Origin: Bacteroidales bacterium
GTDB lineage: Bacteria > Bacteroidota > Bacteroidia > Bacteroidales > P3
Direction of reading: 5' to 3'
Length of the DNA: 64,000 nt
Assembly: GCA_017479705.1 (NCBI GenBank)
Contig: JAFVCA010000005.1
Span: 32,435 to 96,434, forward strand
The stretch's first letter is position 1; every line of letters begins with the position of its first letter. Made by a program: the position numbers and the translations under genes. Shown piece by piece: positions 38,087 to 64,000 of the stretch. A model generated the notes under the pieces. That model saw only the letters and a list, made by a program, of their open reading frames with translations. It was not told the DNA's origin and ran no database searches.

Positions 38087-38094
38087 TATCTTTG
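38087..38094 (+). promoter_or_regulatory. Promoter -7 element of the leader RNA / peptide-lipoprotein cassette
   Basis: TATCTTTG followed by CAG, after an A-rich stretch. Predicts transcription from about 38100. Confidence 0.75.
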
Positions 38095-38099
38095 CAGTG

Positions 38100-38372
38100 T
38101 CAACCTCCCGGCCCCTTGACGGGTAAGCGGTGGGAGACAGGACATAACAAAAAAGACGTTGAGCGAAACGTTTTATCTGCGGCATACGAATCTAGCAAAT
38201 TCAAACATTCTCCGCACGATAAAGCAAGGCCAGCGCCTACTGGTGTGTAATATACATGCTTTTTGTATATTGGCACAGCGTGGGCTCGGCATTGTTTATC
38301 TTGAGAATGGGCATTGCTAGAGCCTCGTATGCGGGATAAACGATGAGTTTGATACCCGCGCTTCTTTTTTAT
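38100..38372 (+). ncRNA. Structured leader or stand-alone RNA of unknown family, ending in an intrinsic terminator
   Basis: About 270 nt between a promoter and a T-run, with no coding frame. Stems that can be read directly: CTCCC 38105-38109 / GGGAG 38132-38136; TGCGG 38178-38182 / CCGCA 38212-38216; CCAG 38231-38234 / CTGG 38241-38244; TGTGTAATATAC 38245-38256 / GTATATTGGCACA 38266-38278; and GTTTATC 38295-38301 / GATAAAC 38336-38342. The last 3' segment can instead form GCGGGAT 38332-38338 / ATACCCGC 38353-38360 followed by CTTCTTTTTT, an intrinsic terminator. The two final stems overlap and exclude each other, which is the layout of a transcription attenuator. It does not match tmRNA, SRP RNA, RNase P or a riboswitch I know. 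The peptide gene starts 74 nt later. Confidence 0.55.
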
Positions 38373-38445
38373 ATGCTTCCTTGTGTCAATTTTATTAGGT
38401 TTGGCGTAGGTGTCCGCCAGTGATTTAAAGTCAAAAACAAACAAC

Positions 38446-38601
38446 ATGACAGAAAACAGCAAAAAGATGTACACAACTCCCATGGTGGAAGTGTTGGATG
38501 CACGCGTCGAACGTGGCTTCGAGGGCAGCCTCGCCCCCACAGGCAGCAACGAAGACCTCATCAGCAGTGGCGAAGTCCACGGTGGCAGCGACTTCGATTA
38601 A
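38446..38601 (+). CDS. Short peptide (51 residues) with Y-x2-P ... VE-x-GF motif
   Basis: Starts MTENSKKMYTTPMVEVLDAR, continues VERGFEGSLAPTGSN and ends in an acidic, Gly/Ser-rich tail (EVHGGSDFD). There is no signal peptide or membrane helix. The N-terminal half belongs to a type of small Bacteroidales protein I recognise only by pattern (Y-x-x-P-x-hydrophobic-x-V ... VE-x-GF ... GS), and the peptide at 61269 shares it. Both lie directly ahead of a lipoprotein with a FISUMP-like end. A conserved N-terminus with a variable, Gly/Ser/Asp-rich C-terminus resembles a leader-plus-core precursor, but no maturation enzyme is adjacent. An upstream in-frame ATG would add 12 residues; MTENSKK follows the A-rich entry tract AAAAACAAACAAC. 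Function unknown. Confidence 0.6.
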   Translation: MTENSKKMYTTPMVEVLDARVERGFEGSLAPTGSNEDLISSGEVHGGSDFD

Positions 38602-38608
38602 GGCCTTT

Positions 38609-38690
38609 ATATCTCGCAAGGTCTCCACGTATCACACGTATTACACGGATAAATAATACTTGAGATACGCTAAATACGTGGAGAATAAAA
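38609..38690 (+). promoter_or_regulatory. Attenuator-like hairpin between peptide and lipoprotein genes
   Basis: TCTCCACGTAT (38622-38632) pairs perfectly with ATACGTGGAGA (38674-38684) over a 41-nt loop and is followed by ATAAAAAAAG. An alternative pairing TATCT-CAAG (from 38610) with CTTG-AGATA (38659-38667) would be incompatible with full folding. Confidence 0.5.
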
Positions 38691-38736: not shown

Positions 38737-40245
38737 ATGAAGAGAATAGTATCAAGTCTATTGAGCTTGTTGGCTCTATCAAGTCTATTCACCGTCACCT
38801 CCTGTCAGAAGGAGACCGTGGGCAACGGCACGCAGTTCCGCGCCACGATGGAGGGATGCACCTCGAAGGACGGCAAGACCGCCCTCAACGGCACCGCCCT
38901 CAACTGGGTGGCAGGTGACGAGATCGCCGTGTACGGCACCGCAGGCCGCGGCATCTACACCGCCACGCCGCAGACACCCGCCACGGTGGCCCTGTTCGAC
39001 AACGTGAGCGGCGAGACGGGCGACGCCCCCTTCCGCGCCTACTATCCCACCACGCTGACCACCGACGGCATCCATGTGACACTGCCCGCCGTGCAGACCA
39101 CCACCGACGGTTCGCTGACGGAGTTCCCGATGTACGCTCAGAGCGACGACAACACGCTGGCCTTCCGCAACCTGTGCGGTGTGCTGAAGCTGCACCTGAC
39201 CAAGGCTGGGGTGAGCGTGAGCAGCATCGAGGTGAGCACCAACACGCCCATCAACGGACAGTACACCCTGCGCTACACAGGTGTGCCGGTGATTGACTAC
39301 GAGAGCAACGGCACAAACAGCACCGTACTGGAGTGCGAGAACCCGCAGCCGATAGCCAACGGCAAGGACTTCTACATCTACCTGCCCCACGGCAACTACA
39401 CCGAGATGGCGTTCACCATCACCGCCTCTGACGGTTCGGTGTGCACCAAGCACAGCAAGGCCAACGTGGCCATCTACATCACCCGCAGCCAGTACACCAC
39501 TATCAACCTGGGCGAGAATGACCTGAACTTCGTCAACACTCTGCCCGAAGGTGCATTGCCCGGCTTGTTCACTATCAACGAGTATGGAGACCAAGTCCGT
39601 TTCTCCATGGGTAACCTGCAGTATCAGGCCAGCACCAACACATGGCGTTTTGCCGAAAACCAGTATGACTTTGTGGGTGCAGACAATCTCAATATCAGTG
39701 CTACCTACAGCGGATGGATAGACCTCTTCGGCTGGGGAACGGCCAACAATCCTACATTGACTTCCACCAACACTGCTGATTATGGTACTACTTTCGTTGA
39801 CTGGGGCACCAATGCCATTAGCAACGGTGGCAATACCGCCAACCAGTGGCGTACACTCACCAGTGCCGAATGGCAGTACCTGTTCAATAACCATCAGTAT
39901 GGTACTGGTAATATTAATGGAGTAGGTGGCCTATTTATTCTTCCAGATGATTGGATTCAACCACTTGGATGTGAATTTAGTGCTGGCTTCAATAATACGT
40001 GGACATGTAATAATTATTCGCTTACACAATGGTCTGCGATGGAGGCAGCAGGGGCTATTTTCCTTCCTTCAGCAGGCTATCGATACTCCAACAGTATACT
40101 AGAAGGCGGCTATTATTGGTCGTCATCTCTAATATATGAAGTGACTCCGATGCAGATAATGTTTATGAGTTGGTGGCTTAGTGATTATAATTGGCTCCCT
40201 CAATTTAGCGGGATTTCAGTTCGTCTTGTTCAAGATAACAACTAA
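38737..40245 (+). CDS. Fimbrillin-like lipoprotein with C-terminal FISUMP-like domain
   Basis: 502 residues. Signal peptide with lipobox FTVTSCQKE (T-S-C). Residues ~25-265 read as a fimbrillin (Mfa/FimA-like) beta domain (LNWVAGDEIAVYGTAG, FRAYYPTTL, NLCGVLKLHLTKAG, DFYIYLPHGNYTEMAFTI). From about 270, LPGLFTINEYGDQVRFSMGN opens a FISUMP/Fib_succ_major-like domain: LQYQASTNTWRFAENQYDFVG, YSGWIDLFGWGTANNP, NAISNGGNTANQWRTLTSAEWQYLF, ... SAGYRYSNS, YYWSSS, ISVRLVQDNN. Likely surface-exposed. From about 39895 to the stop, base use becomes AT-rich (TTA, AAT, ATT codons), unlike the GC-rich first part. Shares its plan with the 61533 gene. Possible roles are adhesion or fibre assembly; the ligand is unknown. 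Confidence 0.75.
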   Translation: MKRIVSSLLSLLALSSLFTVTSCQKETVGNGTQFRATMEGCTSKDGKTALNGTALNWVAGDEIAVYGTAGRGIYTATPQTPATVALFDNVSGETGDAPFRAYYPTTLTTDGIHVTLPAVQTTTDGSLTEFPMYAQSDDNTLAFRNLCGVLKLHLTKAGVSVSSIEVSTNTPINGQYTLRYTGVPVIDYESNGTNSTVLECENPQPIANGKDFYIYLPHGNYTEMAFTITASDGSVCTKHSKANVAIYITRSQYTTINLGENDLNFVNTLPEGALPGLFTINEYGDQVRFSMGNLQYQASTNTWRFAENQYDFVGADNLNISATYSGWIDLFGWGTANNPTLTSTNTADYGTTFVDWGTNAISNGGNTANQWRTLTSAEWQYLFNNHQYGTGNINGVGGLFILPDDWIQPLGCEFSAGFNNTWTCNNYSLTQWSAMEAAGAIFLPSAGYRYSNSILEGGYYWSSSLIYEVTPMQIMFMSWWLSDYNWLPQFSGISVRLVQDNN

Positions 40246-40366: not shown

Positions 40367-40373
40367 CACCCGC

Positions 40374-40424
40374 AAAGTGGATAGATTTGTAATGATTGCA
40401 ACCACTGAAAAATAATGCTAAACA
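40374..40424 (+). promoter_or_regulatory. SAM-II riboswitch aptamer upstream of metK
   Basis: The P1 stem is GTGG (40377-40380) with CCAC (40402-40405). The loop ATAGATTTGTAATGATTGCA matches the SAM-II loop with its GATTT and ATTGCAA parts. After P1 comes TGAAAAATAATGCTAAACA, the conserved pseudoknot strand with GCTAAA. SAM-II binds S-adenosylmethionine and lowers expression of methionine/SAM genes, and the gene downstream is SAM synthetase. The aptamer begins within a few bases of the predicted transcription start. Recognised by pattern, not by a covariance search. Confidence 0.75.
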
Positions 40425-40425
40425 C

Positions 40426-40482
40426 ATGATTTTCATAACTAACAATCACGCCTTTCCGTTCCCTTTGTCAGTGTGCCCCTAA
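40426..40482 (+). CDS. Possible 18-residue leader peptide in the metK leader
   Basis: ATG two bases after the aptamer opens MIFITNNHAFPFPLSVCP and stop. Its TAA stop lies exactly in the CTAA loop of hairpin TGCCC-CTAA-GGGCA (40474-40487). If translated, the ribosome would melt this hairpin. It may be chance. Confidence 0.35.
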   Translation: MIFITNNHAFPFPLSVCP

Positions 40483-63768: not shown

Positions 63769-63936
63769 CACCCGCTTTCGACAGGGAAACGCACCGCAAG
63801 GGCGTTCCTGGAAAGGGAAAGCGAAAGTACATTGAAACGGATGGGAAAGATGAGATAGCGTGTGTCGGAGGCATCCGGTCGAGGCCGGGTGCGGAGACAC
63901 GAAGACGAGTCAAAAGGTAGAAGCAAGCAATTCTTA

Positions 63937-64000
63937 CAATGAAGAGTTTGATCCTGGCTCAGGATGAACGCTAGCGGCAGGCCTAACACATGCAAGTCGA
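63937..64000 (+). rRNA. 16S ribosomal RNA, 5' end (truncated by window edge)
   Basis: GAAGAGTTTGATCCTGGCTC is the conserved 16S 5' sequence, followed by AGGATGAACGCTAGCGGCAG and GCCTAACACATGCAAGTCGA, of Bacteroidales type. The mature 5' end is estimated from alignment with the E. coli start. Confidence 0.97.

Follow-up and report, generated by a model that had tools for sequence, protein, structure and literature searches.

The window, a 64,000-nt stretch of DNA from a Bacteroidales bacterium, carries on its forward strand at 38099–38371 a structured RNA with a promoter box and a terminator hairpin, and this RNA is probably a cis-acting transcription attenuator that would alternate between two states and is riboswitch-like in its build. 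Comparison with homologous copies shows it to belong to an RNA family with predicted helices P2–P3, an alternative pairing of three strands (m1, m2 and m3) and a position in cis to a gene. The observation of a structured RNA at this locus, made in an earlier note on the same DNA, is confirmed.

The RNA extends from an inferred start at a conserved GTC (38099) through the end of a T-run, and all of the features described here lie on the forward strand. Ahead of it stands TATCTTTG (38087–38094), a TAnnTTTG box that we take to be the Bacteroidetes-type -7 promoter motif. The promoter claimed at this place in the earlier note is borne out by comparison: 140 of 147 closely related copies (the close set) have the box around the start of the RNA, and it lies upstream of 78 of 90 copies from across the order (the order-level set), as opposed to 8 of 90 shuffled stretches. 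Positions 38100–38375 fold with an energy of −96.5 kcal/mol (z −4.76), which none of 200 shuffles equalled. A 5′ hairpin, AAGACGTT/AACGTTTT (38153–38174), is seen in folds of shortened forms and in the consensus fold; when the fold ends at 38345, CGTTTTATC (38169–38177) is predicted to pair with GATAA of m3, a pairing that may represent an intermediate. The 5′ strands of three helices follow at 38182–38188 (P2a, partner 38326–38332), 38191–38197 (P2b, partner 38315–38321) and 38206–38212 (P3, partner 38303–38309), and after these come m1 (GATAAAGCAA, 38218–38227), s4 (GCCTA, 38235–38239), s5 (AGCGTGGGC, 38277–38285) and m2 (CATTGTTTATC, 38290–38300). In one arrangement, conformer A, m1 would pair with m2 (helix P4) and s4 with TGGGC of s5 (P5); the other possible partners are m3 for m2 and t for s5. 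GCGGG plus m3 (GATAAACGATG) occupies 38331–38345, where GCGGG may pair with t and where 38331–38332 double as closing bases of P2a. The 3′ arm of the terminator, t (GATACCCGCGCT, 38351–38362), has s5, m3 and m5 as possible partners and is followed by the terminator T-run (38365–38371); in each of two copy sets, a T-rich tail likewise comes after the stem in the first 15 rows. The last element, m5 (GGTGTC, 38409–38414), lies 3′ of the terminator and is complementary to GATACC of t. Both alternative 3′ stems that had been noticed earlier exist, about one position away from where they had been placed: GTTTATC (38294–38300) pairs with GATAAAC (38335–38341), GCGGGAT (38331–38337) pairs with ATACCCGC (38352–38359), and the T-run follows the second of them.

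Relatives of this RNA are spread through the order Bacteroidales. BLASTN, which may split one copy into two, returned seven matches in the window's own genome, one of them a 79-nt fragment at a contig end. Within the genus, 27 of 37 genomes gave a match, as opposed to none of 24 genomes from elsewhere in the order. Scanning named genomes with a sequence pattern returned at least 115 stretches, 113 of which nhmmer confirmed as true relatives; the two matches without homology support (L091 and L100) are chance hits. Among the 80 titles listed, 77 read Bacteroidales, Bacteroidetes or Bacteroidia, and the remaining three belong to Candidatus Sodaliphilus and to the two chance hits; wherever hosts are named in these titles, they are ruminants or other herbivores. 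The copy in Candidatus Sodaliphilus limicaballi is divergent (L153:1150–1485, minus strand; nhmmer 4.7e-17). With a first covariance model (R1), built from 48 copies, cmsearch matched the core of the window RNA at 38177–38366 with 168.8 bits, the window copy itself being one of the 48 rows, and the RNA was found in 65 of 393 Bacteroidales genomes. A second model (R2), built on 30 matches that are spread across the order and include two of the window's genus, found it in 86 of the 393 genomes and in 48 of 206 genera. Outside the order the RNA is rare (three class-level genomes with R1 and one more in a phylum sample with R2), and the forms there are short, at 136–147 nt. Up to about six copies occur per genome; copy numbers taken from the model searches are lower bounds, since only 6 to 8 candidates were scored in each genome. 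The first alignment dropped 12 of 86 loci (2 duplicates and 10 partial or weak ones). The close set arose from 171 full-length matches, reduced to 147 unique copies with a mean pairwise identity of 69%, some of which had been selected with a pattern in which much of s5 and m2 is prescribed. The order-level set of 90 shares four copies with the earlier, close loci, and four of its copies belong to the window's genus (L202, L207, L234 and L236).

The earlier note had recognized no RNA class here, and cmscan against Rfam 15 (4227 models) agrees: neither the window RNA nor this RNA at 25 other loci matched any family, which rules out a known Rfam family. In L211, a sub-threshold match to the fluoride riboswitch lies elsewhere than the leader RNA. 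An exact-pattern scan of IMG/VR and a BLASTN search of phages and plasmids with the window RNA were without match, so that a phage or plasmid element is unsupported. Among the titles and abstract openings listed by literature searches, none describes this RNA; the full list of 3161 structured-RNA candidates belonging to PMC8040213 may overlap with it.

The stretch of about 270 nt had also been described as free of coding potential, and this holds across the family. A stop-free run of 80 codons occurs in some frame in 59 of 147 copies and in any single frame in at most 22; with no frame common to most copies, a coding region is ruled out, and a 153-aa minus-strand ORF is likewise left without such support. 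The 3′ strand of P2b contains an ATG (column 732 of the close alignment) in 129 of 147 close and 72 of 88 order-level copies, and the frame that it opens varies in length, with 8 codons in only 51 of the 129 and 10 of the 72. The ATG probably arises as a side effect of the conservation of two strands. A leader frame of constant length, as expected of a ribosome-mediated (trp-type) attenuator, was not found among the 147 and 88 copies.

Covariation was assessed with our own implementation of a phylogeny-preserving null, not with R-scape, at a cut-off of E<0.05. In the 147 close copies, 16 column pairs passed, 14 of them in P2a, P2b and P3 and two being offset neighbours in P2b; the covariation that was sought among homologues of the window RNA is hence present in all three helices, with E values down to 1.9e-13 in P2a. 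At the order level (88 copies), pairs of P2b and P3 passed, the latter with E values down to 2e-11, together with two offset P2b pairs, the foot pair 6:368 of P2a (E=0.02) and the m2:m3 pair 327:374 (E=0.03). None of the inner P2a pairs passed at this level (best E 0.08). The alignment used (A4) was fitted to P2–P4, so the support that it gives to these helices is biased towards the model; the pairings m2:m3, s5:t, m3:t and s4:s5 lie outside that fit. The counts for s5:t plus m2:m3, for m3:t, for s4:s5 and for P2b, P3 and P4 include one partial antisense row. Taken at the level of aligned copies, covariation thus backs a conserved structured core.

The alternative stems are maintained by coordinated changes among m1, m2 and m3. 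At order-level columns 66/327/374, one in each of the three strands, both pairs are intact in 76 of 88 copies, or in 72 of 84 when the four copies shared with the close loci are removed, and the triplets observed are TAT (30), CGC (27), TGC (8), CGT (5), TGT (3) and ATA (3), the wobble forms accounting for 16. At columns 64/329/372 both pairs are intact in 86 of 88 copies; weaker positions are 79/317/383 (55 of 88) and 67/325/377 (42 of 88), where m1:m2 or m2:m3 is often mismatched. Across the order, TTGCTTATC types of m2 give way to TTGCTCGTTC types, with m1 and m3 changing alongside. In the 147 close copies m2:m3 comprises ten consecutive pairs that are about 99–100% canonical, and one of them is C-G in 122, T-A in 18 and T-G in 7 copies, all 18 As of m3 standing opposite a T of m2; m2:m3 covariation in this set is not significant (best pair E=9.3). 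For m1:m2 at the order level, the two best pairs narrowly miss the cut-off (E 0.06 and 0.1). Since m2 changes in step with both m1 and m3, a two-state switch is suggested: one strand covarying with two partners is the mark of such a switch and is hard to explain by one fold. The strands thus appear to follow a strand-exchange logic (1:2, 2:3, 3:4), in which the same strand changes with two partners.

The pairings around the terminator extend this picture. For s5:t plus m2:m3, 93.4% of cells are canonical and 11 of 20 pairs have changed on both sides, as compared to 42–55% canonical cells when the strands are slid against each other as a control; s5:t scores at least 6/7 in 149 of the 188 copies parsed (of 237). 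For s4:s5, 94.5% of cells are canonical, and the changes are nearly all one-sided and not above those of shuffles. For m3:t at the order level, 83.8% are canonical and five of six pairs have changed on both sides, a count reached by 59 of 500 shuffles, with 40 both-sided cells compared to a shuffled mean of 17. At this level s5:t, s4:s5 and m3:t are complementary, yet not significant under the phylogeny-preserving null. Folded alone, the m3:t hairpin reaches −12.7 kcal/mol (z −3.2; 1 of 200 shuffles equal); a simple hairpin scan omitted it, probably owing to its large loop. When s5:t is forced in the window, m2:m3 joins it in one long hairpin ending at the T-run, which alone has −36.5 kcal/mol (2 of 200 shuffles equal). 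In nested folding, which took 47 of 48 and 69 of 90 rows of two copy sets, conformer A lies below the conformer containing s5:t and m2:m3 (conformer B) by a median of 12.4 and 13.7 kcal/mol, the gap in the window being 6.5; among the usable copies, B has the lower energy in 0 of 47 and in 4 of 69, and the isolated segment from s5 to t adopts B in 32 of 47 and 49 of 69. As A is far more stable in nested folding, B would need help or kinetics to form. There are thus mutually exclusive helices that appear to be tied to the terminator, s5:t and m3:t being recognized by their complementarity, and from these we infer a link to termination. The terminator/antiterminator scheme put forward in the earlier note therefore stands as far as alternative stems are concerned, and has to be enlarged to a set consisting of m1, m2, m3, s4, s5, t and the partly conserved m5. 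Likewise, the GTTTATC/GATAAAC stem exists, but it can be one half of the terminator-like hairpin of s5:t and m2:m3 rather than a plain antiterminator.

In many copies m5 is found some 40 nt 3′ of the terminator stem. Its complementarity to t is copy-specific: among 211 distinct copies (from 236, then 220), m5 matches all seven bases of its own t in 51, with 0.5 expected when t is swapped between copies, and scores at least 6/7 in 89 as opposed to 10 with swapped t. This score is also reached in 22 of 80 copies with an uncommon t. The fold from t to m5 is modest in the window (z −1.5; 19 of 200 shuffles equal), and by eye no m5 was seen in a copy that precedes a surface-repeat gene (L007). We regard m5 as a partly conserved fifth element that may pair with the terminator arm t. 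As m5 could act only after read-through, t would have to be free in the read-through RNA, which suggests A as the 'on' state.

Genes were called as longest ORFs without a trained gene finder, and covered 139 close copies (2 without a next gene) and 89 order-level copies (1 without). The downstream gene is co-directional with the RNA in 118 of 137 close and 81 of 88 order-level cases, whereas upstream genes are mixed (co-directional in 74 of 131, or 74:57, and in 49 of 84, or 49:35), and the downstream and upstream proportions differ with Fisher p values of 8e-8 (close) and 3e-7 (order-level). The next gene starts at a median of 56 nt (close) and 67 nt (order-level) after the end of the match. 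Several of the minus-strand calls concern short ORFs and may be spurious, and a few look real (for example those next to L111, L161 and L170). The position of the RNA is hence consistent with the 5′ leader of a co-directional gene. In the window, this gene encodes a 51-codon peptide (38446–38601, start chosen by eye), for which Pfam gave no match and NCBIfam matches stayed below the cut-off; the second gene (38737–40245) encodes a 502-aa protein with a lipoprotein-like start as judged by eye, with neither a Pfam nor an NCBIfam match, whose C-terminus (YYWSSS...GISVRLV; 40080–40245) we presume to resemble lectin-fold or retroelement-diversified proteins. An inverted repeat seen by eye between the two genes, CTCCACGTAT/ATACGTGGAG (38623–38683), is possibly a second hairpin. 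Further along the window are an ordinary SAM-II riboswitch (RF01726, 53.6 bits, 40371–40431), which precedes an S-adenosylmethionine synthetase gene, and the start of a 16S rRNA gene (63936–64000), cut by the window end.

The RNA had been placed ahead of a peptide-lipoprotein cassette, and a check had been suggested on whether its homologues always precede similar peptide genes. The placement in cis before a co-directional gene was correct; the specificity was not, since the window's peptide type lies downstream in 15 of 141 close copies and in none of the 89 order-level copies whose downstream sequence is long enough, and a link to peptide-lipoprotein genes only is ruled out. Of the distinct downstream proteins, 102 of 113 (close) and 73 of 80 (order-level) were searched against Pfam, with each query limited to 300 residues. 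BspA-type LRR proteins account for 30 of 102 and 6 of 73. The other families, among those listed (the best 25 of 38 in the close set and the best 25 of 48 at the order level), are scattered over one to three proteins each and include LytTR, sigma-70 region 4, protein kinase, D12 methyltransferase, restriction endonuclease, carboxypeptidase-like and PEGA domains. PADLOC models, mostly of restriction-modification and other defence types, matched one or two of the 102 proteins each. Neither a metabolic theme nor a common pathway emerged among these downstream genes, hence there is no pointer to a ligand. As seen from translations by eye, a 142-nt short relative (L308:4452–4593, minus strand) ends 12 nt before a type III restriction-modification-like gene pair and shows apparently concerted changes of s4, s5 and t, while another short relative within the order (L307) precedes a reductase-like gene near a topoisomerase-like gene.

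In the mechanism we favour, transcription would start at about 38099, and the nascent RNA would fold into a long irregular hairpin, conformer A, consisting of P2a, P2b, P3, P4 (m1:m2) and P5 (s4:s5). Once the last 40 nt are out, s5 could capture t and m2 could capture m3, giving conformer B with its long hairpin up to the T-run; alternatively, t might pair with GCGGG in the short m3:t hairpin, whose first two bases are shared with the foot of P2a. Either B or the m3:t hairpin would end transcription ahead of the gene. Conformer A with its foot closed would leave t free, RNA polymerase would read on and, in copies with m5, t would be trapped by m5 after read-through. The balance would be shifted by a common signal, which may be a metabolite, a protein or the state of the transcription machinery. 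Termination would thus be the regulated step, A the 'on' state and the RNA the sensor of the signal. Two hairpins could both act as terminators, which makes this sign of the switch less certain. We give limited credence to the opposite sign, in which A and the short m3:t hairpin would make up the terminated state and m2:m3 would be the antiterminator, as the earlier note had it. The greater stability of A, the folding energy of the m3:t hairpin and its share of canonical cells across the order all speak for this assignment. However, column 368, the second base of the terminator 5′ arm, covaries with column 6 of P2a, which implies that a fully closed A competes with m3:t; moreover, m2:m3 accompanies s5:t, which itself abuts the T-run, and a read-through RNA with t bound to s5 would presumably leave m5 without a use.

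The remaining alternatives concern the nature of the element. That the RNA acts in trans as a stand-alone sRNA, with the neighbouring gene incidental, appears improbable to us: it does have its own promoter box and terminator hairpin, and sRNA families can be multi-copy, but the next gene is close and co-directional, the alternative pairings are conserved, and the copy-specific complementarity of t and m5 falls into the leader of that gene. Independence from the orientation of the next gene, as expected of a trans-acting family, was found in neither the close nor the order-level set, and by gene orientation a stand-alone sRNA is disfavoured, although one may arise as a by-product. A similarly small chance is given to a non-switching RNA, whose one pseudoknotted fold would contain m2:m3 and s5:t alongside P2 and P3. 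The helix sets cross and some of their base pairs are compatible; against this, m2 changes in step with both m1 and m3, and the geometry appears unfavourable: m2 directly adjoins the upper end of P3, and m3 adjoins the foot of P2a some 20 bp away, which leaves hardly any linker. The attenuator might also depend on a protein, or be a processive-antitermination element, instead of a metabolite switch, which is conceivable but not what we would expect; such an element could presumably be of a NusG-paralogue or put-like type. The diversity of targets without a metabolic theme points in this direction, as do, by eye, the short distant relatives that precede restriction-modification-like and other cargo genes, two of these relatives being located near integrase- or topoisomerase-like genes.

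Trp-type attenuators employ a chain of strands, 1:2, 2:3 and 3:4, with alternative termination. The leader RNA shares this strand-chain logic with them, including Bacteroid-trp (RF01692), but differs from them in having neither a leader frame of constant length nor an Rfam match. With transcription-terminating metabolite riboswitches it has in common a structured 5′ leader, a conserved core, alternative helices, a terminator-like hairpin and a co-directional gene; unlike them it lacks an Rfam match, precedes unrelated targets and has as many as about six copies in a genome. Bacteroidales-1 RNA (RF01693) and other Bacteroidetes motifs (PMC2864571) are, as far as described there, structured RNAs of the same order, from which it is set apart by the cmscan of the window and 25 loci, which found no Rfam family. 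Several of the human-microbiome candidates of PMC8040213 are Bacteroidetes RNAs with terminators as well, but those described have sizes of 40–132 bp and other neighbours, and it is by these descriptions that they are distinguished.

We tentatively consider, as a wider reading that we would not yet count as the probable one, that the RNA is a portable control module of Bacteroidia, which would place accessory cargo under one shared signal by means of a strand relay (m1/m2/m3 and s4/s5/t) and, in some copies, an m5 trap. The cargo, comprising surface repeat proteins, lipoproteins, restriction-modification systems and sigma factors, may have been acquired horizontally. If our interpretation is right, a widespread regulatory RNA is absent from Rfam, and it occurs in an order, Bacteroidales, whose members dominate many communities of the rumen and gut and of whose regulatory RNAs few are understood. 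A single signal would then act on many unrelated accessory genes, which would be unusual for a riboswitch-like leader, and the alternative pairings, m5 and the many natural variants would offer a handle for finding that signal. The coordinated changes of one strand with several partners would furthermore make this RNA a case in which both states of a switch are readable from sequence.
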